Origin: Gari tellinella
Lineage: Eukaryota > Mollusca > Bivalvia > Cardiida > Psammobiidae
Direction: 5' to 3'
Assembly (NCBI GenBank): GCA_922989275.2
Contig: OV277872.1
Span: 30,153,619 to 30,217,618, forward strand
Length of the DNA stretch: 64,000 nt
Shown here one piece after another: positions 84 through 63,683 of the stretch. A program made the translations under genes and the position numbers. The notes beneath the pieces are model-generated. The model was not told the origin of the DNA. It did not search any database and saw nothing but the letters and a program-made list of their open reading frames with translations. Position 1 is the first letter of the stretch; every line of letters begins with the position of its first letter.

Positions 84-316
84 TACAGTAGAGAAAACAG
101 TGTATTTCCAAATAACCCCGGTTAAGCTTAAACTATTGTTTTCATTGCAAACAGTTTGGAGTCAGATCACCCCGTAACCCGGCGTCTGATCAGGCTCCAA
201 ACTGTTTCCCACTCAAATTAAAACTGGTGGTCGGAATTGTCAAAAGGTTGTCATTTTCTATATTTCATTGCAATGCGTTTGCGTTTGAACGAAATAATTA
301 CGTTTTCTCCACTGTA
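84..316. mobile_element. MITE family A, copy 1
   Basis: The ends read TACAGTAGAGAAAAC and GTTTTCTCCACTGTA, an inverted terminal repeat with TA at the outside. The middle (147-207) is a damaged form of the family hairpin: the right arm GGCGTCTGATCAGGCTCC is intact but the left arm has lost several bases. The flanks carry the family's AATGCGTTTGCGTTTGAACG block. There is no coding capacity. The termini resemble pogo/Tigger-type Tc1-mariner MITEs; that class assignment is an inference. Confidence 0.75.
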
Positions 317-447
317 TTTCCGACCGGTAGCCAACCTACCATCGATTTCTTTACTCACTGAACTCTTCACTGTATGGTTGTGATTATCTGATGCTACATA
401 AATTGCGATACATTTCACAGAAAGACTTCATGCAATATACATACATA

Positions 448-803
448 CATTGCTCCCTCTCTACACCGTCCCTCTAAACAACGACTCCCTCCTTACAACG
501 ACACTTGCTGCAGTTCCCTAAACAGGACAATTATGTCTAATGCTTTACTGTTCCAATATTGTCTGCTCAAAGTTGTCATCTGCTATGTTGTTCTCAAAGT
601 TACATATTTGACCTTTGACAATAAAACGTAATGACGAGTGACAAATAGCTTGAATCATGATCAGACGCCGCGTTACGCGGCGTCTGATCCGGATTAAGCT
701 GTTTGCAAATGTAAACCAGATTCCCTCTCTGTAACGACTTCTTCCGAACAACGCACACATTTTTGTCCTCCATTGGATGTCGTTGTAGAGAGGGCGCGCT
801 GTA
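448..803 (-). mobile_element. MITE family B, copy 1
   Basis: The left end TGCTCCCTCTCTACA and the right end GTAGAGAGGGCGCGCTGTA form inverted ends. The central hairpin is at 641-706, with the arms TTGAATCATGATCAGACG and CGTCTGATCCGGATTAAG. The usual family B internal blocks are present (AGTTACATATTTGACC, CAACGACTCCCTCCTTACAACG). Open frames here are readings through the hairpin and not genes. Confidence 0.75.
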
Positions 804-975
804 TTACCTAGGTCTGGAACAATAACTAAATGGATTTTCCTCTCGCAGAATAAACTCCACCTCTCTCATGCAATATTATTCTCTATTTACATGTACATGT
901 GCATTGCCAGATGGTGGCTACTCTAGAAACAAAAGGGAAAACCCATTCACTGTCAATATTTTGGCTTCCTTTCAG

Positions 976-1104
976 CTGTGGCCGTCTCCACGAATTGCAC
1001 TACCGGTCATGTGAGCAGCTGTCCCGGCCACACCTCATGTAGCACTATGTATCACCTGCAATGTTACGATGGTGCCTGTGTGTGTGCGCATAACACTGCT
1101 AATG
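976..1104 (+). CDS. Internal exon of a cysteine-rich secreted-type protein
   Basis: This exon lies between a pyrimidine-rich acceptor (CTTCCTTTCAG) and a strong donor (GGTAAGG). It begins with the last two bases of a codon and ends with the first base of the next, so it is a symmetric phase 1-1 exon of 129 bp with no stop in the reading frame. The 42 whole codons hold six cysteines spaced C-x8-C-x5-C-x7-C-x4-C-x1-C and end in GACVCAHNTAN. Its phase fits the exon at 4210-4319, whose translation has the same C-x4-C-x1-C ending, so the two look like successive cysteine-rich repeats of one gene. Small disulfide-rich repeats of this kind are typical of secreted proteins. I cannot name the family: EB-like, defensin-like and protease-inhibitor folds are all possible. 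The signal-peptide exon is not visible and would lie upstream, probably outside the window. Confidence 0.6.
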
Positions 1105-1454
1105 GTAAGGAAACAATGTTTTCAGGGTCCCATGTTATAAAGCTTTTCAGTTGAGTCTAAACTCGTTCCCAAGCATTTGATTGGTCAGATTTGAGCCTAG
1201 GCTTAAATCTGACAATCAAAGCTTGAGAACACACTCAGACTCAGCTCATATCCTTTATAACCTTGGACCCTGTGTTCACTAATTCTAATGTATAGCCAGG
1301 TAGGGCGGAGCTAACCTTTGGCAAAGATAAACTAATTTGCATTTGATTTTAGAGGTGATAAGTATTGTTCCGTATAGAATAGTTATTTTGCGATACTTTC
1401 CAAATAAAGAACATATGAGCGTGCAGCTATATCCACGTTCAAAAGGTGTGTACA

Positions 1455-1517
1455 GTGCTCTCTACAACAACACCCAATGGGAGACAATGATTGCATGTCT
1501 TGTTCGGACGGAGTTGT
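1455..1517 (+). mobile_element. MITE family B fragment truncated by family K
   Basis: TACAGTGCTCTCTACAACA and CACCCAATGGGAGACAA are the first 60 or so bases of family B. The element stops where the family K terminus TACAGTAAAG begins, so K probably inserted into B or replaced its remainder. Confidence 0.6.
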
Positions 1518-2253: not shown

Positions 2254-2259
2254 TAGGGA

Positions 2260-3430
2260 GAGCATATTAAGATTTGGTTTAGATTTGCAAACAACTTGTA
2301 TCCAGACCAGACGCTGCGTCACGCGACGTCTGATCTGGATTCAAACTTTTTTTCATTCTTGATTATATTCTTTCTGTCAAAATGTCCCTTAATATGTAAG
2401 GTTGAGGAAACAGGGGAGACGACGGTAACTTTCGATAATAAAAGAGCGTGCTGACGTCCCCAAAGTTGAAATGCAAAGATCCGCATCAAAACTCCTCCCT
2501 GCCAGGTCAATAAAATCGACCTATACGACGAAAAATAAACTCAATCGCAAAGCAAAAATTGAAAATAAGAATTAGTTTTACGAAATTTCTTACGAGTTAT
2601 TTTATTCTGAGTGGTAAACAGTTCGGGTCCAACTCAGACACTGGGTTACACTGCGTCTGATTTTACTCTAAACTATTTGCAATGGATATGTTTTATGTAC
2701 AAAAACTGTATAAGCACTGCCAAGACGTCACCAAGCTTAACAAATTATAGACTTCTTTTACTTCTCAAATTTTAAATTTAGTTATTGTGACTCAAAAAAT
2801 ATTAACATGAGTGTCAATTAGTTTGAACCCTGATCATACGCCGCTTCAGGATCCAAACTGTTTGCAACTAATTCCAATTCCTTTATTACGCTCAATTCAT
2901 GAATAACATGTTATACATGAGGAAATATAATATATTCATAAACAAAACAGAATATTTTAGTCTATTAGATTCCGGGTTTATTACGTATGTATTTGAGACT
3001 TGGAGATATACGGGTATTAACAGAAAGTTACGGTTGACAAAATGTACTGAGAAAGCTAGACTTTTTACGTTTTCTGTAAAAAAAACCAACAACATAGGAT
3101 AATTCAAAAGCACGTTTACTTTTAGATAGATGTATAACAATAGCTTCTAGTACATTTACACACGTTCCTAAGCACAAAATGCGTATGGTTATATAAGACA
3201 TGTAAATATTTTAATGAATGGATGAACGAATGATTGGTTGAATGAATGAGTGAATTAATCAATCAACCAGTCAATATACCAGTCGTAGGACAATGGAAGG
3301 GTTTATTTATCAAAGTGTGTATTGGTTGAACGTCAGTCTACAGTAGATCTAGATCAGCCTTTATGCAGTGGTCCGACCCCGAATCTCTCCAAACCTCCCC
3401 AAACCACTTTTAAAAACAAGTTTTCCATAT
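2260..3430. other. Gene-free stretch with decayed hairpin remnants
   Basis: I see no exon with convincing splice signals here. The stretch holds eroded copies of the CAAACAG/GATCAGA hairpin (2288-2347 and 2627-2686), an AT-rich segment open on both strands (2892-3140) without family resemblance, and short ATGAATGA-type low-complexity sequence near 3213-3260. Confidence 0.5.
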
Positions 3431-3444: not shown

Positions 3445-3517
3445 GCTTAAAGCAGGCTGAAAGTACAACAGGATGCGCACTTAGGTGCAGTCTGCTTTAC
3501 TTTCAACCTGCTTTAAG
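3445..3517. repeat. Family C hairpin core
   Basis: GCTTAAAGCAGGCTGAAAGT is followed, after a CG-rich apex, by its inverted form ACTTTCAACCTGCTTTAAG. The outer parts of the family C element are weak here, so only the core is annotated. Confidence 0.6.
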
Positions 3518-4319: not shown

Positions 4320-4322
4320 GAT

Positions 4323-4643: not shown

Positions 4644-5003
4644 TACAGTGTTCTTTTCTACAACGAATATCCAAACAACGACTCCATCCTTACAACGGCC
4701 ATCGCCTATGTTCTCCAAACAAGACACTTATGTCCAACATTTTCTCGGCTTCGTTATCGTCTGCTTAAAATTGTCTTCTGCTGTTTTTTCTCAAAGTTAC
4801 ATAATTGATATTTTGACAGAAAAAGTATAATGTCGAGTAGCAAACAGCTTGAATCCAGATCAGACGCCGCGTAACGCGGCGACTGATCTGGATTCAAGCT
4901 GTTTTCAAATGTAAGCCACTTCCCTCCCTATAACGACTTTCTCAGAACAAAGCAAATACTCTTTGTCTCCCATTGGGTGTCGTTGTAGGGAGGGACCACC
5001 GTA
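4644..5003 (-). mobile_element. MITE family B, copy 2
   Basis: TACAGTGTTCTTTTCTACAA and GTTGTAGGGAGGGACCACCG are the ends. The hairpin is at 4841-4905 with apex CGCCGCGTAACGCGGCG and one mismatch (GACTGATC for GTCTGATC). Confidence 0.75.
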
Positions 5004-10339: not shown

Positions 10340-10577
10340 TACAGTGAAGAAAAAGTAATTATTTCGTTCAAATGCAAATGCATTGCAATATGAAATATGG
10401 ACAATGACAACATTTTGACAATTCAGACTGCCAGTTTTAATTCGAGTGGCAAACAGTTTGGAGCCTGGTCAGACGTCGGTTACCCGGCGTCTGATCTGGC
10501 TCCAAACTATTTGCAATGAAAATAATAGTTTAAGCGTAACCGGGATTATTTGGACCGGAAACGTTTTATCTACTGTA
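10340..10577 (-). mobile_element. MITE family A, copy 4
   Basis: TACAGTGAAGAAAAAG and TTATCTACTGTA are the ends. The hairpin is at 10449-10514 (GGAGCCTGGTCAGACG and CGTCTGATCTGGCTCC). Confidence 0.75.
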
Positions 10578-14149: not shown

Positions 14150-15120
14150 ATATTACATGTACTGAGTGTTGCTTTCTGGAGCCGATGAGTACTGAGACGA
14201 CGGTGACTATGAAGAATTTAAATCATATGTTAGAAACCATAAAAAAAAACAAGTTGGCTGCTTTATAAAAGGAAACGAAGACAAAGTCTGAAGTCGTTAA
14301 TGGATGTTAGATGAAATTGGGTCTTGGTTACAATTTACTGAATATAGAAAACAATTTTTACATTGACGTGTACATGAACTCGATGCCAGGGGTCAATATA
14401 TAGCTGAGTCCGTATTTAAACCGTGACTTACTGTCTATACTAACAACGATTAAAACATGTCAATCGAATTTCAGTCGTCAAATCAATCATTATGCAGGCG
14501 TCTCGGCTTAAAGCCCTATATCAAGCCCTACATAGCACCCACCAATCACCCATAACAGGGTATGTCTATTATAAACAAATTATCACAGCAGGGTACTAAT
14601 TTATAGATGTAGACCAATATAAGGGATAATGATAGCTGTGCATTTAACCCTTAAGCTGTGGATCGCTAGTTGACTGTTATTTTTTCAAACAGTCTGATCC
14701 AGATCTGATACTGCATAATATCGCATCTGATCTGTATCCAAACTGTATACCATACTTTTTTAATTGAAATATGTACAAATCTAATTTAAATATTGTTTGC
14801 AGACGACAATTTAAAGGCAGAAGATATTACCGCAGGGTAAGGGTTAAGCACACAGTGATATTGTCTGTAGATTAAAAATTGATGGAATTGATTTAATTTT
14901 ATTATTCTGTAAGTTTGGTTCTTATAATACATAACAAAACAGTGGGATAGTAATCTGGCTTTAATAAATAACATCAAGCATAATACCAAGCAAGTCATGA
15001 CATCACATTTACAATCATCAACTATCAAACTACATTTGAAAAATGCAAACTGCATAGATCCAGATCAAATTCTCAGTTACAAAGCACATGAGCTGGAGCC
15101 ATACTAATGACTTTAGGACA
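14150..15120. other. Gene-free stretch with one eroded hairpin
   Basis: The only structure I recognise is a decayed CAAACAG/GATCAGA hairpin at about 14686-14748 (CTGATCCAGATCTGATACT against ATCTGATCTGTATCC). Open frames here have no splice or motif support. Confidence 0.45.
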
Positions 15121-16460: not shown

Positions 16461-16811
16461 TACAGCGCTTCCTCTCTACAACGACAACCAAAATGAGACA
16501 ATAATTGTGTGCGTTGTACGGAGGGAGTCGTTATAGGGAGGGAAGTTAGCTTACATTTAAACAGCTTGAATCCAGATCAGACGCCGCCTGACGCGGTGTC
16601 TAATCTAGATTCAAGCTGTTTGTCACCCGTCATTATATTTATTCCATCAAAATGTAACTTTGAGAAAAAAAACAGCAGACGACAATTTGAAGCAGACGGT
16701 ATTACATAAGTAAAAGCGTTTGACATAACTGTCCTGTTTAGGGAGCTGCGGTAATCGTCGTTGTAAGGACTGAGTCGTTGTTAGGAGGACCGGTAGAGAT
16801 GGAACACCGTA
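16461..16811 (+). mobile_element. MITE family B, copy 4
   Basis: TACAGCGCTTCCTCTCTAC and GAACACCGTA are its ends. The hairpin at 16559-16622 has arms TTGAATCCAGATCAGACG and TAATCTAGATTCAAG. Confidence 0.75.
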
Positions 16812-17282: not shown

Positions 17283-17356
17283 AGCTTAAAGCAGGCTGAA
17301 AGTAAAGCAGCATGTGCCTTAATGCACATTCTGCTTTACTTTCAACGTGCTTTAAG
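17283..17356. repeat. Family C hairpin core
   Basis: GCTTAAAGCAGGCTGAAAGT against ACTTTCAACGTGCTTTAAG, with apex GTGCCTTAATGCAC. It is followed by a CGCGAATTAACGCG-rich stretch at about 17388-17420. Confidence 0.65.
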
Positions 17357-17654: not shown

Positions 17655-17904
17655 TACAGTAGAGAAAACGTTATTCTTTCCCGTTTAAACGCAAACGTCC
17701 GCAAACGCCAAGCAATAATACGTAGAAACGTACAAATTTTGGACAATTCTGATAATTCATGTTTATCTTGGTGACAAACAGTTTGGAGCCTGATCAGACG
17801 CCGGGTTACCCGGCGTCTGATCTGGCTCCAAACTGTTTGCAATAGAAACAATAGTTTTAGCGTAAACGCGTTTATTGGGAAAGAATAACGCTTTCTCCAC
17901 TGTA
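17655..17904 (-). mobile_element. MITE family A, copy 6
   Basis: The ends are complete (TACAGTAGAGAAAACG and CTTTCTCCACTGTA). The hairpin at 17775-17839 is perfect in the stem (GGAGCCTGATCAGACGCC) with apex GGGTTACCC. Confidence 0.85.
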
Positions 17905-25295: not shown

Positions 25296-25623
25296 TACAT
25301 CGCTCCCTATCTACAACAACACTCAATGTGAGCTAAAAGGGTGTGTGTTAATCGGAGGGAGTCGTTATAGGGAGGGAAATTGTCTTACATTTGCAAACAA
25401 ATTGAATCCAGACCAGACGACGTTAAACGCGGAGTCTTATCTGGATTCAAACTGTTTGTCACTCGTCATTAAGTTTGTTGTTTTGTCAAAATGTCCATTA
25501 TGTAATTTTGAAAATAACAGCAGACGACATTTGCATTAGTAAAAGAGTTTAGACATAGCGGCAAGAGTCGTCGTAAGGTAAGAGTCTTTGTTGTAAGAGC
25601 CGTGGTAGGGAGGAAACACTGTA
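25296..25623 (+). mobile_element. MITE family B, copy 5
   Basis: TACATCGCTCCCTATCTAC and GAGGAAACACTGTA are the ends. The hairpin at 25392-25457 is eroded at the apex (GACGACGTTAAACGCGGAG). Confidence 0.7.
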
Positions 25624-26962: not shown

Positions 26963-27216
26963 GTTAACCCTTTCCCTTATAGAAGCGACTTTTAGCACAT
27001 GCATTTTATTCATCCGCTGAAAAAAATAGTTCCAAATAATACCGTAATGAATATGTGTCATATTAAATACTTTCCTTATTCTAGCAGTTAATAGCTTAAA
27101 GCAGGCTGAAAGTAAAGCAGAATGCGCCTTAGGGCGCATTCTGCTTTACTTTCAACCTGCTTTAAGTAGTCACATATCTTCAATACTAGAAACAATGCTA
27201 TCAGGTAAAGGGTTAA
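26963..27216. mobile_element. MITE family C, full copy (reference empty site)
   Basis: TTAACCCTTTCCCTTATAG and GGTAAAGGGTTAA are the ends, with the hairpin at 27094-27166. Its AATGCTATCAGGTAAAGGG phrase is the unoccupied form of the site into which the LTR element inserted at 56740. Confidence 0.85.
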
Positions 27217-27359: not shown

Positions 27360-27709
27360 TACAGTACTTCCTCTCTACAACGGCCTTCCCAACAACGACT
27401 ACCTTCTTACAACGACCATTGCCGCTGTTCCCCAAACAAAACATTTACGTCTAACCTTTTTCATGGCTGCAATACCGTCGGCTTAAATTTGTCGTCTGCT
27501 GATTTTCTCAAGTTACATATAAGTGGATATTTTGATACATTCAATACGATAACGAGTAACAAACAGCTTGATTCCAGACTAGACGCCGCGTCTTATCTGG
27601 ATTTAAGCTGTTTGCAAATGTAAGCCAAGTCTTCATTTTCCCTCCCTATAACGACTTCCTCCGAACAAGACACACAATCTGGTATTGTTGTAGAGAGAGA
27701 GCACTGTAC
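27360..27709 (-). mobile_element. MITE family B, copy 6
   Basis: TACAGTACTTCCTCTCTAC and GAGAGAGCACTGTA are the ends. The hairpin (27560-27615) lacks its apex and part of the right arm. Confidence 0.7.
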
Positions 27710-29114: not shown

Positions 29115-29443
29115 AGTGTGTGCGTTGTTCGGAGGGAGTCGTCATAGAGAGGGAACATTAAGACTTGAATTACATTTGCAAATAGCTTGAATCCAGATCA
29201 AACGCCACTTAACGTGGCGTCGGATCTGGATTCAAGCTGTTTGTCACTCGTCATTATATTTATTATAACAAAACGTCTACTTATATATAACTTTGAGGAA
29301 AACATCAGACGACAACTTTAAGCAGGCGATATTGCAATATTGAAACGTTAGACATACTTCTCCTCTTTAGGGAAGAGCGGCAAGAGTCGTTGTAAGGAGG
29401 GAGTCGTTGTTTGTATGACCGTTGAGGAGAATGAGCGTTGTAC
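29115..29443 (+). mobile_element. MITE family B, copy 8 (left end truncated)
   Basis: It starts at GTGTGTGCGTTGTTCGGAGG without the terminal repeat. The hairpin at 29183-29243 has the apex CGCCACTTAACGTGGCG, a compensated variant of the usual one. Family A follows immediately. Confidence 0.7.
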
Positions 29444-32013: not shown

Positions 32014-32551
32014 ATACACTCAGTGCAAAAAGAAAACGCACATCGTGCTCAGGCGCAGATTAGGATACATTGTTTTTGAGGAAAATTAGAAAAGAAAGAC
32101 CATATCTCAAGATTTATTTAATTCTGCAACAAGTTCAGAAAAAAATACTCAAAAACATTGTGCTGCCTTTTAACCATTTCCCTCCTAATGACGCCAAAAA
32201 GCGTTTGCAAACAGTTTGGATCCTGATCAGACGCAGCGTAACGCGGCGTCTGATCAGGATCCAAACTGTTTGACACTCTTATCGATTTCATTTAAGTCAT
32301 TCTACATTGAAATTTACTTTGAAACGATCTTGCAAACAGCAAAATTGAAGCAGACGACAATAAGACGGTGAAGTTGTAAAAACCTCACGATTAATTTGGC
32401 AGCGTAAGAATTAACTACAGCTTGTTTAAAATACCGCACCGATTAGTGCAGGTTGTGATGCTACCAATTCAATAATGATTTAATAATAATTCACAAATAC
32501 GTTCCTTCTACATAAAAATAAGATTGTACGTTTCTTTTTGAACTGAGTGTA
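32014..32551. mobile_element. MITE family M, copy 1, with embedded family F
   Basis: TACACTCAGTGCAAAAAG and CTTTTTGAACTGAGTGTA are the ends. At 32169-32414 it contains a full F element (TTAACCATTTCCC to GTAAGAATTAA) with a perfect hairpin at 32205-32272. The second M copy (54192-54707) has F at the same internal site, so F was aboard before M spread. Confidence 0.75.
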
Positions 32552-34940: not shown

Positions 34941-34944
34941 CCTT

Positions 34945-35195
34945 AACTCTTTGAACCCTAGTGACGCATATATGCGTCCTTTACTGATTGTGTACATGTG
35001 AAGAGTTCACTTGTCCTATGCAAACAGTGAAGTTCCTGATCAGAGGGCTCCTGCAGGAGCCCTCTGATCAGGGATTTCACTGTTTGGCATTTTGCAATTT
35101 ATTGCAAAAAAAAACCCTAAATAGTCTAAAATGGACCAGCCTTTATTGAAAACTAGAATTGTCCATTGGAAGTTTCAGGGGATAATGAGTTAAAC
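34945..35195. mobile_element. MITE family I, copy 1
   Basis: TTAACTCTTTGAACCCTAG and GGGGATAATGAGTTAA are the ends (TTAA outside). The hairpin at 35022-35090 is nearly perfect: CAAACAG, TGAAGTTCCT, GATCAGA, GGGCTCC, TGCA, then the complements. A degraded relative is at 39232-39445, and fragments lie near 3660-3900, 54090-54150 and 55470-55530. Confidence 0.7.
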
Positions 35196-36922: not shown

Positions 36923-37294
36923 TACAGTGCTCCCTCTCTACAACGACACCCAATGGGAGACCAAAAATGTGTGCGTTGGTCGGAGGGAGTCGTTATAGGG
37001 AGGGAACATTAAGACTTGGCTTACATTTGCAAACAGCTTGAATCCAGATCAGACGCCGCGTAACGCGGCGTCTGATCTGGATTCAAGCTGTTTGTCACTC
37101 ATAATTATATTTATTCTATCAAAATGTCCACTTATATGCAACTTTGAGAAAAACTGCAGACGACAAATTTAAGTAGACGGTATTGCAACCATAAGAAAGT
37201 TGGACATAAATGTTTCGTTTGGGGAACAACGGGACATGTCGTTGTGAGGAGGGAGTCGTTGTTGGGAGGGCCGTTGAAGGGAATGAACGCTGTG
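36923..37294 (+). mobile_element. MITE family B, copy 10 (best preserved)
   Basis: TACAGTGCTCCCTCTCTAC and GAATGAACGCTGTG are the ends. CACCCAATGGGAGACC and GTCGGAGGGAGTCGTTATAG are the subterminal blocks. The hairpin at 37028-37094 is a perfect stem: CAAACAG, CTTGAATCCA, GATCAGA, CGCCGCG, TAA, then the complements. Confidence 0.85.
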
Positions 37295-38447: not shown

Positions 38448-38767
38448 TACAGTGCTCCCTCCCAACAACAGCCCTCCCAACAACGACTCCCTCCTTACAA
38501 CGACTCTTGCCGCAGTTCCCCAAACAAGACAATTATATGAATAATACTTTCATTTGTGCAATATGGTCTGCTTTAAACTGTCGTCTGCTGTTTTTTTCTG
38601 AAAATTACATAATGGACATTTTGACAAACAGCTTGAATCCAGATCAGACGCCGCGTTAGGTGGCGACTGATCTGGATTCAAGCTGTTAGCAAAATGTAGA
38701 TAAACTTGCCTCTCTATAACAACTCCCTCCGAAAAACGCACACTTATTGTAGAGAGGGAGCGCTGTG
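38448..38767 (-). mobile_element. MITE family B, copy 11
   Basis: TACAGTGCTCCCTCCCAACA and GAGAGGGAGCGCTGTG are the ends. The hairpin at 38626-38688 has one apex change (GCGTTAGGTGGC). Confidence 0.8.
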
Positions 38768-38870: not shown

Positions 38871-39115
38871 CAGGGGGCCGTTTTACTAAACAACTTATGC
38901 AAATTATTTGCGTAAGTCAAAATCGTTTAACTCTTATTTTTCGATCATAAACGTTTGCAAACAGCAAATAGCAAGATCAGAGGATGCGCTAAAAGCGCGT
39001 CCTCTGATCGGGCTATTTGCTGTTTGTAGCAAGTGATAATAAAAAATATAAATTTAAATTTAAAAGTTTGACTTCCGCAAAAATTGTGCGTAAGTTGTTT
39101 AGTAAAACGGGCCCC
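38871..39115. mobile_element. MITE family G, copy 1
   Basis: GGGGGCCGTTTTACTAAAC and GTTTAGTAAAACGGGCCCC are the ends, with TTATGCAAA/TTGTGCGTAA behind. The hairpin at 38950-39030 has CAAACAG, CAAATAGC, GATCAGA, then GGATGCGC, TAAAA and the complements. The second copy is at 53662-53902. Confidence 0.8.
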
Positions 39116-39946: not shown

Positions 39947-40170
39947 TTAAGTATTTCACTGCCAACGCCGCCAAAAAGCGACTTTGCAAACAATTTGGAA
40001 TCTGATCAGCACCGTATAACGTGGCTTATGACCAGGAACCGAACTGTTTGACATCGATAAGTTTTAAGCCATACTCTATTGAAACTTGCAAACAACAAAA
40101 TTGAAGTAGACGACAATGAAATGGCGAAAGGGTAAACATCTTAAATATAATTTGGCAGCGAAGGAGTTAA
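39947..40170. mobile_element. MITE family F, copy in lectin intron 1
   Basis: GGGTTAAGTATTTCACTGCC and GCGAAGGAGTTAA are the ends. The hairpin at 39983-40053 is imperfect (CTGATCAGCACCGTATAACG). Confidence 0.65.
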
Positions 40171-45573: not shown

Positions 45574-45897
45574 TACAGCATTCCCTCTCTACAACGACAC
45601 CCAGTGGGAGACAAAAATGGTGTTCGTTGTTCGGAGGGATTCGTTATAGCGAGGGAAATTGTTTAACATTTGCAAACAGCTTGAATCCAGATCAGACGCC
45701 GCGTAACGCGGCGTCTGATCTGGATTCAAGCTGTTTGTCAATCGTAAATAAGGCTTTTTTCTGTCAAAATGACCATTATGTAACTTTGAGAAAAACAGAA
45801 GACGACAATTTTAAGCAGACGATATTGTAGCAGTAAAGGCGTTCGACATACTTGTCATGTTCGGCAATGGTCATGGTAGGGAGGGAGTCGTTGTTGA
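45574..45897 (+). mobile_element. MITE family B, copy 13 (right end lost)
   Basis: TACAGCATTCCCTCTCTAC opens it. The hairpin at 45671-45738 is perfect in the stem. The copy breaks off at GGGAGTCGTTGTTGACGACG and passes into AAT-rich sequence. Confidence 0.75.
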
Positions 45898-46269: not shown

Positions 46270-46509
46270 TTTTTTACATTTTAAAGCTTACTTTGCGAAC
46301 ACTTTGGATCCAGATCAGACGCCACGTTACGCGGCGTCTTATCATAATCCAAACTATTTGACACTTGTTTCGATGAATCTTAAGACACAACAAGATCTAC
46401 CTGCAATCTTACTTTGAAACGACCTTGCAGACAACAATGTTGATGCAGACGACAATAAAGCAGTCAATGGGTAAAATTATCCCGAATAGTTTAGCGCCGA
46501 AAGGGTTAA
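46270..46509. mobile_element. MITE family F, copy in lectin intron 3
   Basis: ACTTTGGATCCAGATCAGAC and GTCTTATCATAATCC form an eroded hairpin (46300-46360), and the right end is GCCGAAAGGGTTAA. It lies between lectin exons 3 and 4. Confidence 0.6.
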
Positions 46510-46995: not shown

Positions 46996-47239
46996 TACAG
47001 TGGAGAACACGTTATTCTTTCCCAATAAACATGTTTATATTAAATCTATTATTTCCGTTGCAAACAGTTGAGAGCCAGATCAGACGCCGGGTTACTCGGC
47101 GTCTGATCAGGCTCCAAACTGTTTGCCACTCATATTAAATTGAATAGTCAGACTTATCAAAAAGTTGTCATTTTCTTCATTTTATTGCAATGCGTTTCGT
47201 TTGCGTTTAAACGGGTAGAATAACGTCTTCTCCACTGTA
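46996..47239. mobile_element. MITE family A, copy 9, just behind the lectin gene
   Basis: TACAGTGGAGAACACG and CTTCTCCACTGTA are the ends. The hairpin at 47060-47126 has apex CGCCGGGTTACTCGGCG. The CCCAATAAACATG inside lies 155 bases behind the lectin stop codon and includes an AATAAA. Confidence 0.8.
47023..47028 (+). promoter_or_regulatory. AATAAA supplied by a MITE downstream of the lectin stop
   Basis: This is the first AATAAA seen after the lectin stop at 46868. It belongs to the terminal block of a family A MITE. Use as a polyadenylation signal is a possibility only. Confidence 0.2.
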
Positions 47240-47357: not shown

Positions 47358-47682
47358 CTTCTAAAATAATTTTCTACTCGCATATCCAAATAGTTTTTAC
47401 TTACAATGACAGTTTCGGCATTCCGTTGGAGTGCCTTCTTCAGACTGTGAAATTGACCGTTGGAGGATTACGTGATAAGTTTTGTTTACTACTGGGCATT
47501 TTCCCGTAGTAAACAGCGGCCGGTAGATGGGGCTCATTAGATATCCCCCCTCGTCCCTGTTCATGACTCTGTCCTCCTGTACGATGCATAGGGATTCTCT
47601 TAATCTCCTCATGGATGTGTTATTCTCTCTGTCTATCACTTTTACACCCTCCCAGTCTTTAACATGGTTGTGTCTGGCAACA
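47358..47682 (-). pseudogene. Penelope-like element 3' fragment, inverted pair, left arm
   Basis: On the minus strand the frame reads ARHNHVKDWEGVKVIDREN, then SMRRLRESLCIVQ, then MNRDEGGYLMSPIYRPLF. H-x-(D/N)W-x-x-x-KV-DRE followed by a NRDEG-Y segment is, to my knowledge, the stretch found behind the GIY-YIG endonuclease of Penelope-like retroelements (and of some relatives). The rest of the polyprotein is missing. The second arm at 47717-47994 is the same sequence inverted, so the two form a giant hairpin with about 35 bases between. Confidence 0.5.
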
Positions 47683-47716
47683 GTCTACAGAACATGCTAG
47701 TGCAGTGACAAATCAT

Positions 47717-47994
47717 ATTGCCAGACACAATCATGTTATAGACTGGGAGGGTGTAAAAGTGATAGACAGAGAGAATAACACATCCCTGAGGAAATTAAGA
47801 GAATCCCTATGCATCGTACAGGAGGACAGGGACGAGGGGGATATCTAATAAGCCCCATCTACCGGCCGCTGTTTACTACGGGAAAAATGCCCAGTAGTAA
47901 ACAAAACTTATGACGTCATCCTCCAACGGTCAATTTCACTGTCATTGTAAGTAAAAACTATTTGGATATGCGAGTAGAAAATTATTTTAGAAGA
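47717..47994 (+). pseudogene. Penelope-like element 3' fragment, inverted pair, right arm
   Basis: This is the plus-strand copy of the same fragment: ARHNHVIDWEGVKVIDREN, then SLRKLRESLCIVQED, then RDEGGYLISPIYRPLF. It lacks six bases around MNR and about 35 bases near the CACTGTCATT junction that the left arm retains. Both arms end at the same point (CTTTTAGAAG), which suggests an inverted duplication or a hairpin-ended insertion. Confidence 0.5.
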
Positions 47995-48218: not shown

Positions 48219-48577
48219 TACAGCGCTCTTTCTCTACAACGACACCAAATGGGAGCCAACAATTGTGTGCGTTGTTCGGAGGGAGTCTTTATAGGGAGGG
48301 AAATTGTCTTACATTTGCAAACATCGTGAATCCAGATCAGACGCCGCGTAAAGCGGCGTCTGATCTGGATTCAAGCTGTTTGTCACTCGTCATTACGTTT
48401 TTTTCTGTAACAGTGCCCATTATGTATTTGAGAAAAACAACAGACGACAATCTAAAGCAGACGACATTGCCACCGTTAATAGATTGGACATAATTGTCTT
48501 GTTTGGGGGCAGAGTGGCAAGCGTCGTTGTAAGGGAAGTTGTTGCTGGGAGGGCCGTAATAGAGAGGGAACACTGTA
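48219..48577 (+). mobile_element. MITE family B, copy 14
   Basis: TACAGCGCTCTTTCTCTAC and GAGAGGGAACACTGTA are the ends. The hairpin is at 48316-48382 with apex CGCCGCGTAAAGCGGCG. Confidence 0.8.
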
Positions 48578-50319: not shown

Positions 50320-50572
50320 TTAACCCATTACCTGATAGCATTGTATCTAGTATTGAAGATATGTGACTACTTAAAGCAGGTTGAAAGTAAAGCAGAATGC
50401 GCCCTACGGCGCATTCTGCTTTACTTTCAGCCTGCTTTAAGCTATTAAGTGCTAGAATAAGGAAAGTATTAAATATGACACATATTCATTACTGTATAAT
50501 TTGGAACTATTTTCTTCAGCGGATGAATAAAATGAATGTGCTAAAAGTCGCTTCTATAAGGGAAAGGGTTAA
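50320..50572. mobile_element. MITE family C, full copy
   Basis: TTAACCCATTACCTGATAGC and TATAAGGGAAAGGGTTAA are its ends. The hairpin at 50371-50443 is nearly perfect (GCGCCCTACGGCGC apex). Confidence 0.8.
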
Positions 50573-53661: not shown

Positions 53662-53902
53662 ACTCGTTTTACTAAACAACTTACGCAAAATTTTTGCGTA
53701 AGTCAAAATCGTTTAACTCTGATTTTTCGATCATAAACGTTTGCAAACAGCAAATAGCCATTTCAGAGGACGCGCTAAAAGCGCGTCCTCTGATCTGGCT
53801 ATTTGCTGTTTGTAGCAAGTGATAATTAAACATATAAATTAAAATTTAAAATTTTTACTTACGCAAAACTTTTGCGTAAGTAGTTTAGTAAAACGGGCCC
53901 CC
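53662..53902. mobile_element. MITE family G, copy 2
   Basis: CGTTTTACTAAACAACTTA and TAGTTTAGTAAAACGGGCCC are the ends. The hairpin at 53740-53815 has near-perfect arms (CAAACAG, CAAATAGCC, apex GCGCTAAAAGCGC) with TTTCAGA on the left against TCTGATC on the right. Confidence 0.8.
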
Positions 53903-55281
53903 GAACTATAGTTCCACGTGCAGTCGCTTTATAGTTTCCGTGTTTAATTATGAGTATTGACGATGAACATATAATTATTCTGTAGATGTGTATAACTATG
54001 AACTGCATAAGTCGAATTTACCTATTAAATACTTGCCGCGCAAAATATGTATCTTTTAACAAACAGTGTACCTGTGAAGAGTACACTTTTCCTATACAAA
54101 AAGTGCATATCTTTTGTATGAGCCCTTCGACCAGGGTCTAAATGCAGACGACATGTTTGCAAGCGGACACAGGGCTACCATACACTCAGTGCAAAACGAA
54201 ACGCACATTTTTCATTACACTATTTGTTTGTAGAAGGAACGTATTTGTGAATTAATATTTTCATTAAGGCAGTAGTTCTGTCTGGGGGTATCAATGTTGA
54301 AAAACACAACCTGCACAAATCAGTGCGATGATTAAAACAGACTGTAGTTTTCTTTCGCTGCCAAATTAGTCGTGCGATGTTTACCCCTTCACCGTTTCAT
54401 TGTCGTCTGCTTCAAATTTGTTGTTTGTAAGATCGTTTCAAAGAAAGATCCAATGTAATATGAACATATCGGTACGAGCGTTACGCGGCGTCTGATCAGG
54501 ATTCAAACTGTTTGCAAATGCGTTTTTTTGCGTTGTTAAGAGTTACAGGGTTAAAAAGCAGCACACTGGTTTTGAGTTTTTTGTTTCTGAACTTGTTACA
54601 GAATTAAATCAATCTTGAGATATGGTATTAGTATTCTAATTTTTTTCAAGAAAAGATTCTTAATCTGCACATGAGCACGATGTGCGTTTCTTTTTGCACT
54701 GAGTGTAAGTTGATCTTAAAAAATCCTAAGATTTCAAAATTTTCCATTTGTCAAGCAGGATTACTTAAAGCAGGTTGAAAATAAAACAAAATGCGCCTCA
54801 TGGCGCATTCTGCTTTACTTTCAGTATGCTTTAAGCTACCATCTGCTAGGATAAACATCCGAAGATTTCGGAAAATTCTTGAAGATGATATTATGACAGT
54901 GAATGTGTTCGTCAGATTATGAAGTCTTAACCCTTTCATGATCAAATTTATCTTGAGATGTTTACCCCTTCACCGCAATAGTGTCCTCTGCTTTAATAAT
55001 ATTATCTGCAATATCGTTTGAAGCTAGAGTCATTGCAATATGATTGACGAAAAGTAAATTTCGAAACGTGTATCAAACAGTTTGGGTCATGATCAGACGC
55101 CGCGTTACGCGGTGTCTGATCAGGACCCAAACTGTTTACAAACGGTCTTTAAAGCGTCATTTAGAATGAAAGGGATAACGGCGGAGAATTAGTTAGAAAG
55201 CATACTTGTGCTAACCGACCGCATTCTTATATCAGACCATTCAATACGGACGAGCGTCTGATGAAGCAGAAAAACAGAAAC
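53901..55281 (+). repeat. Tandem duplication, copy 1 (holds family M)
   Basis: It starts CCCGAACTATAGTTCCACG and ends CAGAAAAACAGAAACAATC. Without the family M insertion at 54192-54707 it is about 0.87 kb and matches copy 2 almost base for base. It contains a family C core (54766-54835) and a family F element (54927-55178). Confidence 0.8.
54192..54707. mobile_element. MITE family M, copy 2, with embedded family F
   Basis: TACACTCAGTGCAAAACG and CTTTTTGCACTGAGTGTA are the ends. The duplicate sequence at 55560-55575 reads CTACCATAAGTTG without it, proving a TA target duplication. F lies at about 54365-54554, at the same internal place as in 32014-32551. Confidence 0.85.
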
Positions 55282-55914: not shown

Positions 55915-55983
55915 ACAAACAGTTTGGGTCATGATCAGACGCCGCGTTACGCGGTGTCTGATCAAGACCCAAACTGTTTGCAA
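55915..55983. repeat. Family F hairpin, well preserved
   Basis: CAAACAGTTTGGGTCATGAT, CAGACGCCGCGTTACGCGG, then TGTCTGATCAAGACCCAAAC. The sister in copy 1 is at 55076-55141. The surrounding F element is 55773-56019. Confidence 0.8.
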
Positions 55984-56035: not shown

Positions 56036-56285
56036 TACAGTGGAGAATGTGTTAATCTTTCCCAATAAACGCGTTTACGCTAAAACTATTATTTGCAGTG
56101 CAAACAGTTTGGACTCAGATCAGACGCCGGGTAACCCGGCGTCTGATCAGGCTCTAAACTGTTTGCCACCTAAATAAACATGAAATATCATAATTGTCCG
56201 AAAGTTGTTCTTTTCTACGTTTAGTGTTTTGCGTTTGCGTACGTTTGCGTTTAAACGGGAAAAAAATAACAGATTCTCCACTGTA
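56036..56285. mobile_element. MITE family A, copy 10
   Basis: TACAGTGGAGAATGTG and GATTCTCCACTGTA are the ends, with TA on both sides and a single TA in the empty site of the tandem partner. The hairpin is at 56100-56166. Confidence 0.85.
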
Positions 56286-57935: not shown

Positions 57936-59360
57936 TCAACGTCGGGCAGGAATAACGTATTTCCCACTCTCCCTGACGTCTTTCTGGTAGTCAACTTTCT
58001 TGTGTCCAAGTGGCAGAAGAAGGTTTCTGTGGAGTACTCTTGTTGCCCTTGCCTTTGGACAGTCCTTCTTTACTTTATAAACCGGTATGTCCGGGTTGGG
58101 TTGAGACACAACCACATACGGTGTACTCTCCCACTTGTCCGCAAGTTTGTGCTTCCCTCGCAATGATACGTTTCTAACGAGGACGAGGTCTCCAACAGCT
58201 AATGTGCTGGCTTTGGCTCTGGTATCATAACGGGATTTGTTGTCTGATGCTCCCTTTGCTGCAACTGCTTCCGCCTTTTTGTATGCCTTGGATAAGCGAT
58301 CACGAAGCTGTTTGATATATTCATGCTTGCTCTGGTATTTATCATCATTTGCCGAAAGTCCGAGCAGCGAATCTATGGCTAGTTTTGGATGTCGACCAAA
58401 CATAAGAAAGTACGGTGAGTAGCCAGTAGATTTGTGAATGGTGACATTGTACGCATGAACCATAGGTGCAACATGCGATTTCCAGTCCGCTTTGTTATCT
58501 TCCTCCAAGGTCCCTAGCATCTTCAGAAGGGTTGAGTTGAATCTCTCCACTTGTCCATTCCCCATAGGGTGATATGGTGTCGTGTGGCTTTTTGCTATTC
58601 CAGCAAGTTGGCAGAGATCTTTAATTAGTTCAGACTCGAAGTTAGGGCCTTGGTCAGAGTGGATGCGTGATGGAAATCCATAGTGCGTGATGAAGGATTC
58701 GAACAAAACCTTGGCTGTTGTTCTGGCTAATTGATTCTTGGTCGGATATGCTTGGGCGTAGCGCGAAAAGTGATCTGTCACAACCAAGATGTTCTCAAAT
58801 CCGCCTTTGGATCGCTCTAGACTTAGAAAGTCTATACAAATGATTTCCATTGGTGCGGAAGATGTAATGGTGACCAGTTCTGCTTTTGATGGTGTCGTTT
58901 TCCTTCTAATACACCTTGGGCACTGTCTCACTTTCTCCTCAATCCATGAATCCATCCCTGGCCAGAAAAATCTCTGCTTGAATAATGAAATAGTTCTGTC
59001 CCTGCCCTGATGTCCTAGATCATCGTGGAGGGCTTTGAATATTTCATCCCGTAAATCGTACGGTAATACTAGTTGTGAGTATTCTTCATTATTGACTTTT
59101 CCACTGTGGTAGAGGACTTCATCCCTCAAGCAGAGTTTTTCCCAGCAACGGAGAAACTTCAGGACCAGAGGACTTTGTTTCGAAGTTAGTCGAGTGACTT
59201 TTGGTCTTGTTCCTCTCCTCAAGTGGCCTATCACTTCAGCTGTCACCTTGTCATTAGATTGTGCTGTTCTCCACTCTCTAGATGTTAGAGCTTCAGACTG
59301 AATTACTTCACTTGGAATGTGTTGTGCCTCTTCGATGTCAGGGCTACGATGTTGGGCGCC
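57936..59360 (-). CDS. Integrase remnant of an internally deleted Ty3/gypsy retrotransposon
   Basis: One frame of about 475 codons is uninterrupted and ends in TGA at 57936. It starts directly behind the primer-binding site and has no ATG, so it is the 3' part of a pol frame fused to the leader by an internal deletion; gag, protease, reverse transcriptase and RNase H are gone. Counting from the open frame's first codon (59396), it shows a zinc-binding H124-H129 ... C159-C162, the catalytic core D189 (ICIDF), D248 (HSDQG) and E284 (GQVERFN) with the D-35-E gap, and a C-terminal GPY/F-like module (KWESTPYVVV). All three acidic residues are intact. Integrases insert retroelement cDNA in the nucleus. 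Whether this one is expressed is unknown; without an ATG near the start it would need splicing or another start. Confidence 0.85.
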   Translation of the reverse strand, partial: GAQHRSPDIEEAQHIPSEVIQSEALTSREWRTAQSNDKVTAEVIGHLRRGTRPKVTRLTSKQSPLVLKFLRCWEKLCLRDEVLYHSGKVNNEEYSQLVLPYDLRDEIFKALHDDLGHQGRDRTISLFKQRFFWPGMDSWIEEKVRQCPRCIRRKTTPSKAELVTITSSAPMEIICIDFLSLERSKGGFENILVVTDHFSRYAQAYPTKNQLARTTAKVLFESFITHYGFPSRIHSDQGPNFESELIKDLCQLAGIAKSHTTPYHPMGNGQVERFNSTLLKMLGTLEEDNKADWKSHVAPMVHAYNVTIHKSTGYSPYFLMFGRHPKLAIDSLLGLSANDDKYQSKHEYIKQLRDRLSKAYKKAEAVAAKGASDNKSRYDTRAKASTLAVGDLVLVRNVSLRGKHKLADKWESTPYVVVSQPNPDIPVYKVKKDCPKARATRVLHRNLLLPLGHKKVDYQKDVRESGKYVIPARR

Positions 59361-59361
59361 A
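59344..59361 (-). promoter_or_regulatory. Primer-binding site, tRNA-Lys type
   Basis: On the minus strand, directly behind the 5' LTR, TGGCGCCCAACATCG begins. Its first eleven bases equal the complement of the 3' end of animal tRNA-Lys as used by other retroelements (TGGCGCCCAAC). The match weakens after that. Confidence 0.7.
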
Positions 59362-60086
59362 TTTTGGTAGAGTGTTATGTGAATCTGTCGTTCCACTGGC
59401 CTTCCGGCCTAACTCAGGGGTTCTAATCAGGATCAACACTCCGATCAAGTAAATCAGTTGTTTATTTCAATATGGACTGTAATGATCATGACAAAGTCAT
59501 GATAAATGAATAAGCAAATAATAAACAATAATAAGAATATGGAAATGATACTTCATGCTACTATAAACAAAGTAATTGTACACAGATATATAGTAAACAA
59601 ACATGTTTATTCGGTGTCAGCTAGACAAAATACACCGACTTGTTACATTACAAATAATTACTGTTATAAATACAAAAGTTATCTTATCCTAACTTAAAGG
59701 TATGAAAGCTAATAGTATCAACATTATAAAAATAGTCTTAACAACATAACAACATGTATTTACCTGTATAAATATCCAATTTATTCAGACGTTAACAAAT
59801 GCCTATATAATGGCTGCCATTTAAATTTACCGGATAAAGATGAACCGTAATCACGTGATGTAAAAGTTAGTCAAAATAATGTTAGTGAAAGTTAGTTCCC
59901 CTAGACCGAAAGTACATATTCCTAACGACTGACAAGACCAAAACGTATAAACTAACAGCTAAATATCTAAATTCTACTGATTATTCTAATGGGAAAATCG
60001 AAATAACAAGAAACTAGGTGATTACATACAGTATTTTATTGATTTATTCATATTTTATCATTCATAGCAAAATCCACCCTACGACA
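59362..60086 (-). repeat. 5' LTR of the Ty3/gypsy-type element
   Basis: This partner LTR reads TTTTGGTAGAGTGTTATG to ACCCTACGACA on the plus strand. Behind it CTATCAGGTAAAGGG continues the family C element. Differences from the 3' LTR include GTGAATCTG for GTGGATCTG and CATGTTTATTC for CATGTATATTC. Confidence 0.85.
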
Positions 60087-60524: not shown

Positions 60525-60774
60525 TACAGTGGAGAATCTGTTATTCTTTCCCGTTTAAACGCAAACGTACGCAAACGCAAAGCACTAAAACGTTGAAAAG
60601 AACAACTTTTGGACAATTCTGATAATTCATGTTTATCTTGGTGACAAACAGTTTGGAGCCTGATCAGACGCCGGGTTACCCGGCGTCTGATCTGGCTCCA
60701 AACTGTTTGCAATAGAAATAATAGTTTTAGCGTAAACGCGTTTATTGGGAAAGAATAACGTTTTCTCCACTGTA
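60525..60774 (-). mobile_element. MITE family A, copy 12 (well preserved)
   Basis: TACAGTGGAGAATCTG and CGTTTTCTCCACTGTA are the ends. The hairpin at 60645-60710 is a perfect stem. A stray second copy of the right-hand block (GCGTAAACGCGTTTATTGGG) follows at 60811-60845. Confidence 0.85.
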
Positions 60775-61011
60775 CCTTTATGTTTTTGTTTGTTTGTTTT
60801 TTCTTCCTTTTTTAGCGTAAACGCGTTTATTGGGAAAGAATAACACAGAAGGGGTTCTGTCTATATAGTCAGAGTCGATTTTCCAAAACGTTGACTCATT
60901 TCTCATCCGCTCAAGAAAGCAACACCCAGTAATACCGCTTAAAAACAAAATAAAAATCAATAAATTCTAAAACTGTATTAGAAGAAACAGTGAAAGGATT
61001 TAAAACAACAA

Positions 61012-62440
61012 GAGCACCGCAGTGCGGCAAAAAACGCCCGTCATGGCCGGCGGGTGTCAAAGTCGTCCGGACTCAGGCCGACTGGAAAAAGTCGCCCGGA
61101 GTGTAGGCCCGACTATCGATCTCAAAAATACTATGCTGTAGTATTGCGATAGTTCAAGTACTATCCCGATAGTATTGCGATAGTTAAGAAGCTATTGCAA
61201 TACTATCACGATAGTTTTTCTACCAACTGTTTTCTCATAAACAAATGCTCTTTGGGCGTATTTACATACTTTGGATATATCACGGAATTATATGTATAAT
61301 AGATTGAGCAAGCATAATCAACATGATGAATCCATGTTTCAATTTTCTTTACTTATACACATGTATAACTAACCTCATAGTTTTCCGCTTAACCATTTAC
61401 CTAATAGCCTGTTTCTTGTTATGAAGACAGGTGACCGTTCAAAGCAGGTTGAAAGTAAAGCAGAATGCACCTTAAGGCTAGAGGTGTTACAAAAGTAAAG
61501 TCTGCGAGTGTGATCAACCTTGCACTTTTCAGTCTTGCTCATTATTAGACTTAGTTATACAAAGATGAAAGAAAACTAAAAGTTATTGTCTGATAGTGTG
61601 GCTTATCTTAAATTTTAAGTATGTAAATGGGCATAACTCGTTAAAACATAATTTAACAGGAACCAAATATTAAATTTGAAATCAATTGAATAAAAAAGAA
61701 GAAAGTTCTTGGTCTTTAAAAAATGCCCATTTTTGACAATAAAGGGGCATAACTCTGCTAAAAATAATCGCCAACGTCTGAAACGCGAACTCGTCCGCAC
61801 TAATGTGGTATGGAATATTTGTAGGAAGTTTTATCAAAATTGTTCAATAAATGAAGGTGAGAGAGCGCTAAGAAGAAAAGTTAACGGACGAAGTGTGGCT
61901 TATTTTAAATTTTAAGTATGTAAAGGGGTATAACTCATAGAAATTATTTTTAACAGGAACCAAAATTCACAGGTGCCCTCCCTGCATGATGAGAAAGATA
62001 AATATGAAATTTGGTTACAATAGACAAAATGTAAGTAAAATTATTATCAGGAAACAATATATTGTTAAAAAAATTGTGTGAAGGGGCATAACTCTGAAAA
62101 TACGGAGTCAAACCAAAAACCCGTAATTTATGTTAAGTAACTTCATTCATTGTATCACCATTTCAAATTTGAAATCAATTGAATAAAAAAAAAAGTTCTG
62201 TTTTCTTTTTTTAAAAATGCCAATTTTTGACAATAAAGGGGCATAACTCTGCTAACAATAGCCGCCAACGTCTGAAACGCGAACTCGTCCGAACTATTGT
62301 GGTATGAAATATTTGTAGGAAGTTTAATCAAAATCGGTAAATAAATGAAGGTGAGAGAGCGCTAACAAGAAAAGTTAACGGACGGACGGACAGCGCTGGG
62401 TATACCATAATACGTCCGTCGATGACGGGCGTATAATAAA
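61012..62440 (+). mobile_element. Long non-coding interspersed repeat with CGCCCGTCA ends
   Basis: It opens ACAAGAGCACCGCAGTGCGG, AACGCCCGTCATGG and closes CGTCGATGACGGGCGTATAA, so CGCCCGTCA/TGACGGGCG is an inverted pair. Two internal units of several hundred bases (about 61600-61910 and 62080-62385) share GGGGCATAACTCTGCTAA, CAACGTCTGAAACGCGAAC and AATGAAGGTGAGAGAGCGC. CTATCGCAATACTATCACG-type short repeats lie near 61140-61225. It has no coding capacity, and this type of repeat is common in bivalve DNA in my experience of such sequences. Confidence 0.6.
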
Positions 62441-62826
62441 CTTCTAGTGAAAAAACATAACACTGTGAAGTGAATATGATGATCACAAAATAATCTACTT
62501 TCTCTTTCTTTAATATATCATATGGTGAAGGATTGTTTCGGTATTGGTTTGTTCGACCTTGGCCGTTTTGACCTATATTTAGGGGTTGGCCGTTTCAGTC
62601 CATTTGGTGGTTCGTTTTCGGTCTACGTTTTGAAACCATCATCAGTGCTCTCAAGAACTTTGATATATAAATATGCGCTCACTACTGTTCTTGAGCAAGA
62701 TTCTTCTGTCCACTTCTCTCGCGTCGTGTGTTAGCTGTGCGCAATATTGTAGGCAAGAGGGCAGTAAATGTATAGTTGGCTGAAATTAGACTATAACTTG
62801 GCACTCTACTTTACTTATAAGATAGC

Positions 62827-63025
62827 CTTTCATGATCAAATTTATTGTAAGATGTTTACCACATCATCACCATATTGACGTCTGCTTCAATATTGTTGTC
62901 TGCAATGTCGTTTCAAAGTTAGATTTACGGCAGTATGACTAACAGAATTTCAAAATGAGTGTCAAACAGTTTGGATCCTGATCAGATGCCACATTATGCG
63001 GCATCTCATCACTATCAAAAATTGT
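62827..63025. mobile_element. MITE family F, last copy (right end missing)
   Basis: CCTTTCATGATCAAATTTAT opens it. The hairpin (62962-63022) is GGATCCTGATCAGATGCC against GGCATCTCATCACTATC. It runs into TTACAGTTTAAACATATTTT, a LINE-like tail with GGGGTTGGGCCACAAG. Confidence 0.55.
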
Positions 63026-63433
63026 TACAGTTTAAACATATTTTATTCCATAAATATACATAGAAATGGGGTTGGGCCACAAGTTCTCACATCATTAGAT
63101 TCGGCCCTTCCCCTTGTGTGTAAACATTCAGACAATATATACAATGGCACTAAACATATATAAATATTTAGTGACATCAAATAGAGTGAGTGGTAAGTAA
63201 GAGAAGAGAAGGAGAAGAAATAAAAATAGCTTACTAATTATGCATATAAAATAACTTATTTAATTTGAGTCACATTTTTGGATCAGTTAGTAGCAGCTGA
63301 GCATGTACAGTTAGTCTTGTATCCAAAAGAAGATGACAACTGATAGATGATGTAGCTCAATGCAGAACAAAACAACAATACAGAAAGTGTTAATAAAAAA
63401 GGAAGAAAAAACAAACAAACAAAAAAATAAAGG

Positions 63434-63683
63434 TACAGTGGAGAAAACGTTATTCTTTCCCAATAAACGCGTTTACGCTAAAACTATTATTTCTATTGCA
63501 AACAGTTTGGAGCCAGATCAGACGCCGGGTAACCCGGCGTCTGATCCGGCTCCAAACTGTTTGTCACCAAGATAAACATGAATTATCAGAATTGTCCAAA
63601 AGTTGCACTTTTCTACGTTTTAGTGTTTTGCGTTTGCGTTTCGTTTCGTTTAAACGGGAAAGAATAACGTATTCTCCACTGTA
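63434..63683. mobile_element. MITE family A, copy 13 (well preserved)
   Basis: TACAGTGGAGAAAACG and CGTATTCTCCACTGTA are the ends. The hairpin at 63498-63563 has the arms GGAGCCAGATCAGACGCC and GGCGTCTGATCCGGCTCC. Confidence 0.85.

Follow-up and report, generated by a model that had tools for sequence, protein, structure and literature searches.

Hairpins of one layout lie within short elements of the window

We analyzed a 64-kb stretch of the bivalve Gari tellinella genome (assembly GCA_922989275.2, contig OV277872.1, positions 30,153,619 to 30,217,618), hereafter the window, in which miniature inverted-repeat transposable elements (MITEs) of several families carry an internal hairpin of one layout. 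The two-box hairpin consists of an outer box CAAACAG, a 10-nucleotide (nt) segment, an inner box GATCAGA, a GC-rich stem that is specific to the family, and a loop of 3-4 nt, and it measures 65-69 nt across families. Allowing up to two mismatches per arm across the 14 box bases, we count 27 complete paired hairpins in the window; the same threshold gave 29 more single-arm matches at about 27 places, 24 of which were inspected, and these comprise damaged copies and surely some chance matches. The initial annotation of the window had cited five such hairpins, each of which we found at its coordinates, and its count of about 40 recognizable copies is fair. Six representative hairpins folded with z scores of -12 to -15.5, and a whole element of family A folded at -15.8, with its terminal repeats pairing around the hairpin.

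The elements that carry the hairpins are about 200-370 bp long, have terminal inverted repeats, and lack a transposase gene, and are MITEs by definition, with a fixed target duplication of TA in families A and B and of TTAA in F, I, and K. Representative elements are a B element with TA ends beginning TACAGTGCTCCCTCTCTACAACG at 36923..37293 (plus strand; hairpin 37030-37094), an A element with TA ends beginning TACAGTGGAGAA at 60525..60774 (minus strand; hairpin 60645-60709), an F element with TTAA ends at 32170..32414 (plus strand; hairpin 32208-32272), an I element with TTAA ends at 34943..35193 (plus strand; hairpin 35021-35086), and a G element with GGGCCCGTTTTACTAAAC-type ends and CAG on both sides at 38873..39115 (plus strand; hairpin 38958-39026). 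A second G element, in which we saw no matching 3-bp duplication, lies at 53665..53913 (plus strand; hairpin 53744-53812).

Further hairpins of family B lie on the plus strand at 2288..2352, 16558..16622, 25394..25458, 29179..29243, 45673..45737, and 48318..48382 and on the minus strand at 642..705, 4841..4905, 38625..38689, and, in shortened form, 27560..27614. Those of family A lie on the plus strand at 56101..56165 and 63499..63563, with the variant A2 at 148..208 and 47061..47125, and on the minus strand at 10450..10513 and 17775..17839. Family F is represented on the plus strand at 39987..40050 and 46296..46360 and on the minus strand at 55074..55138 and 55916..55980, and a hairpin of the TTAA family F2, seen as a single copy, lies at 14686..14749 on the plus strand. 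Copies that have lost the center or one arm are present at 8937, 17998, 29441-29633, and 44027-44357; judged by eye, some of these deletions apparently lie between short direct repeats within the arms, as expected from slippage at a hairpin.

The layout had been described as near-perfect with fixed boxes. While CAAACAG/CTGTTTG and GATCAGA/TCTGATC do recur in A, B, F, I, and G, family K carries GATGAGA/TCTCATC, so the inner box is not wholly fixed, and arms with this K-type box occur 83,881 times in the genome. The stems of A and I are also not perfect because of an A-A mismatch at arm position 17, which is common to the TA-ended A and the TTAA-ended I and is present in two other representatives (L043:7080 and L039:5496). 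We take the inner box to resemble the hammerhead motif CUGAUGA. A hammerhead ribozyme was rejected since an Rfam search of the window at the gathering threshold gave 0 matches.

The two-box hairpin is abundant genome-wide

The genome searched comprises 1,597,604,326 bases in 80 contigs, with the window on contig 17. A genome-wide search for the two-box arm, as the initial annotation had proposed, returned 706,566 exact matches to CAAACAG-N10-GATCAGA (353,127 + 353,439), compared to 23 (6 + 17) for the reversed pattern used as a control. The exact inner core, GATCAGACGCC-N9-GGCGTCTGATC, was found 178,681 times, with 0 matches for its control. We also assembled a 288-kb sample that combines the window with eight 3-kb loci, each selected for the presence of an arm, and with twenty stretches of 10 kb placed at round coordinates. 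The window part was chosen because of the finding, and the unselected part is only the twenty 10-kb stretches, which contributed 72 of the 104 paired hairpins; this density of 72 per 200 kb would extrapolate to several hundred thousand paired hairpins in the genome.

Families that share the hairpin have different ends

Clustering of the flanks placed 77 of the 104 sampled hairpins in six families (A, 33; I, 15; B, 14; F, 7; K, 5; G, 3), and the 27 outside them include the smaller families M, N, P, and F2. Bases adjoining the ends were counted per end and not per element, and the two end queries of a family overlap, certainly in A. By this count, TA adjoins the two ends of A in 44/50 and 47/53 cases and those of B in 9/10 and 8/8, while TTAA adjoins the ends of I in 9/10 and 8/10, those of F in 4/8 and 5/8, and those of K in 6/6 and 9/9. 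M, N, and P have TTAA-type ends like I, and the TTAA families have related ends (TTAACCC..). For G, the four outer ends in the count read CTG, CAG, CTG, and CGG, and the same three bases flank the element on both sides in two of three cases, CTG at L045 and CAG at 38873, with the element at 53665 lacking such a match. CNG duplications of this kind suit PIF/Harbinger. The claim of the initial annotation that the families have unrelated ends stands for the TA of A and B compared to the TTAA of F and I, and G looks like a third kind by the 3-bp duplication in two of its three elements.

Homology continues past the hairpin edge in several families

In many families, CA adjoins the outer box on one side of the hairpin (x), and NCACTC adjoins it on the other (y). 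A y side with GCAGACGACA repeats is common to B, F, K, M, F2, and V71. Pairwise similarity of the y sides gave z scores of 14.4 for B-M, 14.5 for B-F2, 8.8 for B-F, 9.8 for F-K, and 8.5 for M-N, and none of 300 mononucleotide shuffles reached the observed score. When 75 nt and another scoring were used, B-M remained at z 7.5 (0/400 shuffles) and B-F2 fell to 2.8 (4/400); the y side of A resembles that of B weakly under this second scheme (A2-B, 4/400). The match between B and F2 extends to the TTAA end of F2, and in B a TA-type half-element follows. Since the y-side match of B runs to the TTAA end of F2, we interpret B as a TTAA element around which TA-type ends were placed.

Arms covary between families but decay in resident copies

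The initial annotation had suggested a test for covariation between the arms, and this test was positive. In a set of 14 selected representatives, of which nine are single copies, double changes were present at 15 of 27 arm positions (L024:837 and the hairpin at window 14686 were excluded for their 9-base segment). Watson-Crick pairing amounted to 91.8% compared to 74.3% when right arms were dealt to other families (maximum 81.5% of 2,000), and in the variable segments it amounted to 92.1% compared to 59.7% (maximum 73.8%). The inner box of K likewise shows a matched change in both arms.

On the other hand, resident copies within families tell a different story. Among 2,198 arm pairs, taken from copies of 60-70 nt only, 260 had changed on one side and 20 on both sides, 10 of these compensated and 10 not. 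Independence predicts 10.8 two-sided changes, and about 3.6 compensated ones would arise by chance; eight of the 10 compensated changes belong to I and F, families with likely subfamilies. The suggestion that the arms are being kept paired was therefore correct between families but not for resident copies, given the 260 one-sided changes: single loci let the stem decay, and multiplying lineages keep it. At one inner-box position, we counted 1,034 mismatched cores (558 + 476) compared to the 178,681 with a C-G pair, a comparison that covers C-G and mismatched cores, the G-C type being GATGAGACGCC-N9-GGCGTCTCATC with GATGAGA..TCTCATC.

The boxes had also been expected to be better conserved than other internal sequence. 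Within A, B, and F, this was not so in copies selected by their flanks. In A, divergence was 0.098 for the outer box, 0.110 for the segment, 0.119 for the inner box, and 0.138 for the stem core (49 full-size copies among 60 flank-paired ones), and flank identity in the same copies was 89.7% and 87.4%; two A pairings with a long gap, L037:3366-3102 and L044:9655-9283, were resolved by eye in part or not at all. In B and F, the boxes diverge like the rest of the element. In I, the outer box was changed at 0 of 209 bases and the segments at 0.090, and K was nearly unchanged throughout. Since boxes are no better kept inside families, their fixity is a fact that holds between families.

Together, covariation between lineages and decay of settled copies suggest that the fold matters, or is regenerated, during multiplication and not later for the host. 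Host-maintained pairing was rejected, since resident copies decay in the hairpin about as they do in the flanks.

Unrelated hairpins of similar size occur in other MITEs

A scan of the 288-kb sample for hairpins (stem score of at least 20, loop of 3-6 bases) returned 116 stems. Of these, 51 are of the two-box type (10-90% length range, 65-68) and 33 belong to a second type (median 72); the other 32 include some two-box hairpins in trimmed form. The second type is 70 nt long, begins TTAAAGCAGGYTGAAAGTAAAGCAGAATG, is unrelated to the two-box hairpin, and lies inside a TTAA MITE with ends TTAACCCTTTACCCCATA. Fifty-five paired copies are present in the sample, 13 of them in the window, where they start at 3447, 4034, 10957, 12889, 13944, 17286, 19256, 27096, 30438, 43032, 50371, 54765, and 56636; those at 17286..17355, 27096..27165 (RNA fold z -13.9), and 50371..50440 (z -15.7), listed without a strand, are examples. 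A third type, 67 nt long and beginning CCTATGGTGTCACTACTCATTAGAATCGTCTC, lies between CAGGGCTCCAGATAAG ends, which we take to be hAT-like. It has 18 copies in the sample (among them L036:5697, L036:6123, L032:6879, and L039:9283) and 0 in the window. Four hairpins of the second and third types folded with z scores of -12.5 to -15.7. Since palindromes of 74-165 nt are also present in the scan, a size of about 65-70 nt is common but not exclusive. The existence of two unrelated hairpins of similar size in other MITEs suggests that the hairpin shape itself may help an element to spread.

piggyBac elements with defined ends lack the hairpin

The piggyBac domain PF13843 gave 86 matches in the genome, and 12 loci were cut out. 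Four of them (L048, L049, L050, and L054) form a sibling group whose aligned parts are 97-99.8% alike. L049 was delimited by reference to L048, and L051 was assigned by its ends only. The ends of the L048 family, TTAACCCTTTCGGCGCC, resemble the F copy at 46296 at its right end, which reads inward TTAACCCTTTCGGCGC, and match the commoner left end of F, TTAACCCTTTCACTC, less far. A second piggyBac family, L055, has ends TTAACCCTTAGACCGCCACTCGCG, like K. F and K are therefore each matched at their ends by a piggyBac that resides in this genome.

No hairpin arm was found at two mismatches or fewer inside the six piggyBacs with defined ends (L048, L049, L050, L051, L054, and L055), with L054 scanned whole; L055 holds one arm at three mismatches and GCAGACGACA once at one mismatch. 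We rejected inheritance of the hairpin from inside these two piggyBac families, which are free of arms at that threshold. Among loci whose ends were not defined, L046 and L047 have a hairpin that was likewise rejected as part of the piggyBac, since it belongs to a TTAA MITE of its own, about 203 bp long and next to the transposase gene, and the arm at L053 lies outside the part that aligns to the siblings of L053. For the TA-ended families, 150 of 486 DDE_1 candidates were scored and four pogo-like loci were fetched.

An old core refitted with new ends would account for the distribution

We favor, with modest confidence, the explanation that an old hairpin core passed by descent to the members of a large clade of TTAA MITEs, was fitted with other ends, and may have gained an advantage at the level of the fold. 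The core would comprise the hairpin and its y side, with NCACTC at the edge and GCAGACGACA repeats farther away in several families. Many TTAA families were probably moved by several piggyBac lineages, whose members with defined ends are hairpin-free. The core would then have been re-capped with TA ends of pogo or Tc1-like type in B and probably in A, and probably with CNG ends of Harbinger-like type in G. Judged from the sequences, the swap of ends appears clear in B, within which a TTAA-type end is still recognizable, and probable in A and G. Nested insertion or recombination could have exchanged the ends, in an order that we infer. Of the readings in the initial annotation, the one with the best support is common descent with a later exchange of termini, in the case of B, whose y side matches M and F2.

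As for the advantage, our guess is that the fold benefits the element independently of its transposase while the element multiplies. One option is that the RNA fold of the whole element, terminal repeats included, would help its removal from host transcripts or its tolerance in them; another is that the fold would act at the DNA level, in a single strand or a cruciform, while the element is replicated and transposed. In the predicted fold of the entire A element the ends pair up around the hairpin, so a benefit at the level of RNA or single strands is favored. Removal of elements from transcripts is the idea known as SOS splicing, a term that a search of the open-licence literature found in no paper; a single sentence of PMC13155455 stands behind the idea.

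Several observations weigh against this explanation. The y sides of A, I, G, and P matched those of no other family at z of at least 4, so for A, I, and G the case for common ancestry comes mainly from the hairpin and its edge. The B-F2 match appears weak (4/400) over 75 nt with the other scoring, F2, M, N, and P are known from one or two copies, and only two of the three G elements have a matching duplication. Arms are present in all six piggyBac loci without defined ends (L046, L047, L052, L053, L056, and L057). Among the four pogo-like loci, the two with clear ends have no A- or B-type ends, and the other two have hairpin arms inside and undefined ends. These four loci, drawn from the 150 scored of 486 DDE_1 candidates, thus gave no autonomous element that shares the ends of A or B, and for G the 150 scored of 515 DDE_Tnp_4 candidates yielded no locus. 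Finally, arm-to-arm templated correction without any function could yield covariation, and a mutational origin of the matched changes is a serious rival.

According to this rival, the fold is not under selection. Instead, the arms would be re-matched by template switching or gene conversion, as in quasipalindrome correction, and the core would owe its spread solely to its presence in the first successful MITEs. It explains double changes without function, the center-deleted and one-armed copies suggest that the hairpin is unstable, and the scarcity of mismatches at the inner-box position (1,034 compared to 178,681 C-G cores, among C-G and mismatched cores counted) is in keeping with it. However, resident copies are little corrected, with 260 one-sided and 10 compensated changes in 2,198 pairs, even though 10 exceeds the roughly 3.6 expected by chance; A and I retain the same A-A mismatch, and the two unrelated hairpins of similar length are left unexplained. 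We consider correction alone a possible but rather unlikely account. There is also a broader alternative, which we hold only tentatively and likewise think somewhat unlikely, in which a hairpin of about 65-70 nt and of any sequence would be a transposase-independent propagation device, inherited or separately evolved in animal MITEs of piggyBac, TA, Harbinger, and CAGGG types. If so, the hairpin and not the ends would be the constant part of the selfish unit, and lineages would succeed through their fold, for instance because host transcripts lose or tolerate the element or because single strands fold while copies are made.

The remaining explanations are improbable. A regulatory, binding-site, or hairpin-RNA function under host selection would suit the palindromic inner box and the pre-miRNA-like size of 65-70 nt, but the hairpin decays about as fast as its flanks and the window has no Rfam match at the gathering threshold, which makes such a function improbable. 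Simple divergence, in which one old MITE's ends drifted apart, fits the TTAA families among themselves, with their related TTAACCC.. ends and common y side, but misfits A and B, since their target duplication differs from TTAA, and probably G; transposases of different types make TA and TTAA duplications, G seems to represent yet another type, and the TA ends of B lie outside the stretch that matches a TTAA end. As an account of all families, it is very improbable. Even less credible is a hairpin module moving on its own into MITEs, a reading that the initial annotation had entertained. The same hairpin does occur in many end contexts, and the 27 of the 104 outside the six main families leave some room for this reading, but homology continues past its edge in several families and no duplication was noticed at the edges. 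Moreover, 19 of 21 short paired-end A elements in the sample carry the hairpin and 2 a remnant, as do 4 and 1, respectively, of five short B elements; self-insertion was rejected since no empty form was seen among these.

Comparison with known elements

MITEs are short, non-autonomous DNA elements that depend for their movement on piggyBac, Tc1/mariner-pogo, or PIF/Harbinger transposases, and those of one family usually share their ends, and often their insides, with one autonomous partner. They are understood through their ends, and their insides are usually treated as passive filler. The elements described here resemble other MITEs in their length of about 200-370 bp, terminal repeats, TTAA, TA, or 3-bp duplications, lack of a transposase gene, and very high copy number, but differ in that the inside, the 65-69-nt hairpin, is common to families with different end types. 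Here it is the inside that is conserved across end types, and a single genome holds several hundred thousand copies of it. This bears on the long-standing question of why a few short elements explode in number, in a form that can be tested through the pairing of the arms.

In Stowaway and mPing MITEs, internal sequences are reported to raise transposition, and inner sequence may similarly matter for amplification here; those elements are not known to have a covarying hairpin common to transposase types. The pearl elements of bivalves and the tandem-repeat MITEs of Donax have a tandem repeat as their core, and the elements in G. tellinella are likewise short, non-autonomous bivalve elements with a distinctive core, which in this case is a hairpin. 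The zebrafish MITE Angel, described by Izsvak and colleagues in 1999, reportedly folds as a whole element and concerns one family, unlike the discrete internal hairpin common to several end types that we describe. The likeness lies in the proposal, as described in PMC12628747, that intrastrand folding of Angel takes part in its amplification.

We found no published description of the hairpin layout in titles or abstracts of the open-licence literature, a scope that does not include Repbase. Text searches of open-licence papers matched hairpin sequence strings only in papers with unrelated titles and abstracts and hairpin peptides in none.

Occurrence in public sequences

When the translations of ten window hairpins were combined into a profile, 1,414 of 4,139 candidate public proteins matched it at E ≤0.1. 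Among 120 listed matches, 31 were read, and most of these have ANSxxPDQT-type peptides, several with a matching half from the right arm. A protein search with one degenerate reading frame of B gave no match. In pattern scans of viral contigs, one pattern gave 16 stretches, none with a second arm by eye, and the others gave none. Pattern scans of genome contigs gave no match for one pattern and, for another, only MUIB01000095.1, a contig of a Spirochaeta metagenome-assembled genome (MAG) that carries a hairpin with a TTAA-like flank at its end (L001:1-120). By eye, this flank resembles family P, and no second hairpin place was found in that MAG. PMC6461927 describes a Spirochaeta-like MAG, P3, from the gills of the lucinid clam Phacoides pectinatus, and the name suggests that this is the MAG in question. 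The contig end is probably host DNA joined to a bacterial contig, that is, a chimera in a public MAG.

Other features of the window

Longer inverted repeats, perhaps fold-back elements, are present in the window at 40609-40740 (arms of 60 nt), 45219-45315 (47 nt), and 47569-47829 (112 nt). The minus strand at 57936-59408 contains an open frame of 490 amino acids that, by eye, resembles the integrase region of Ty3/gypsy.

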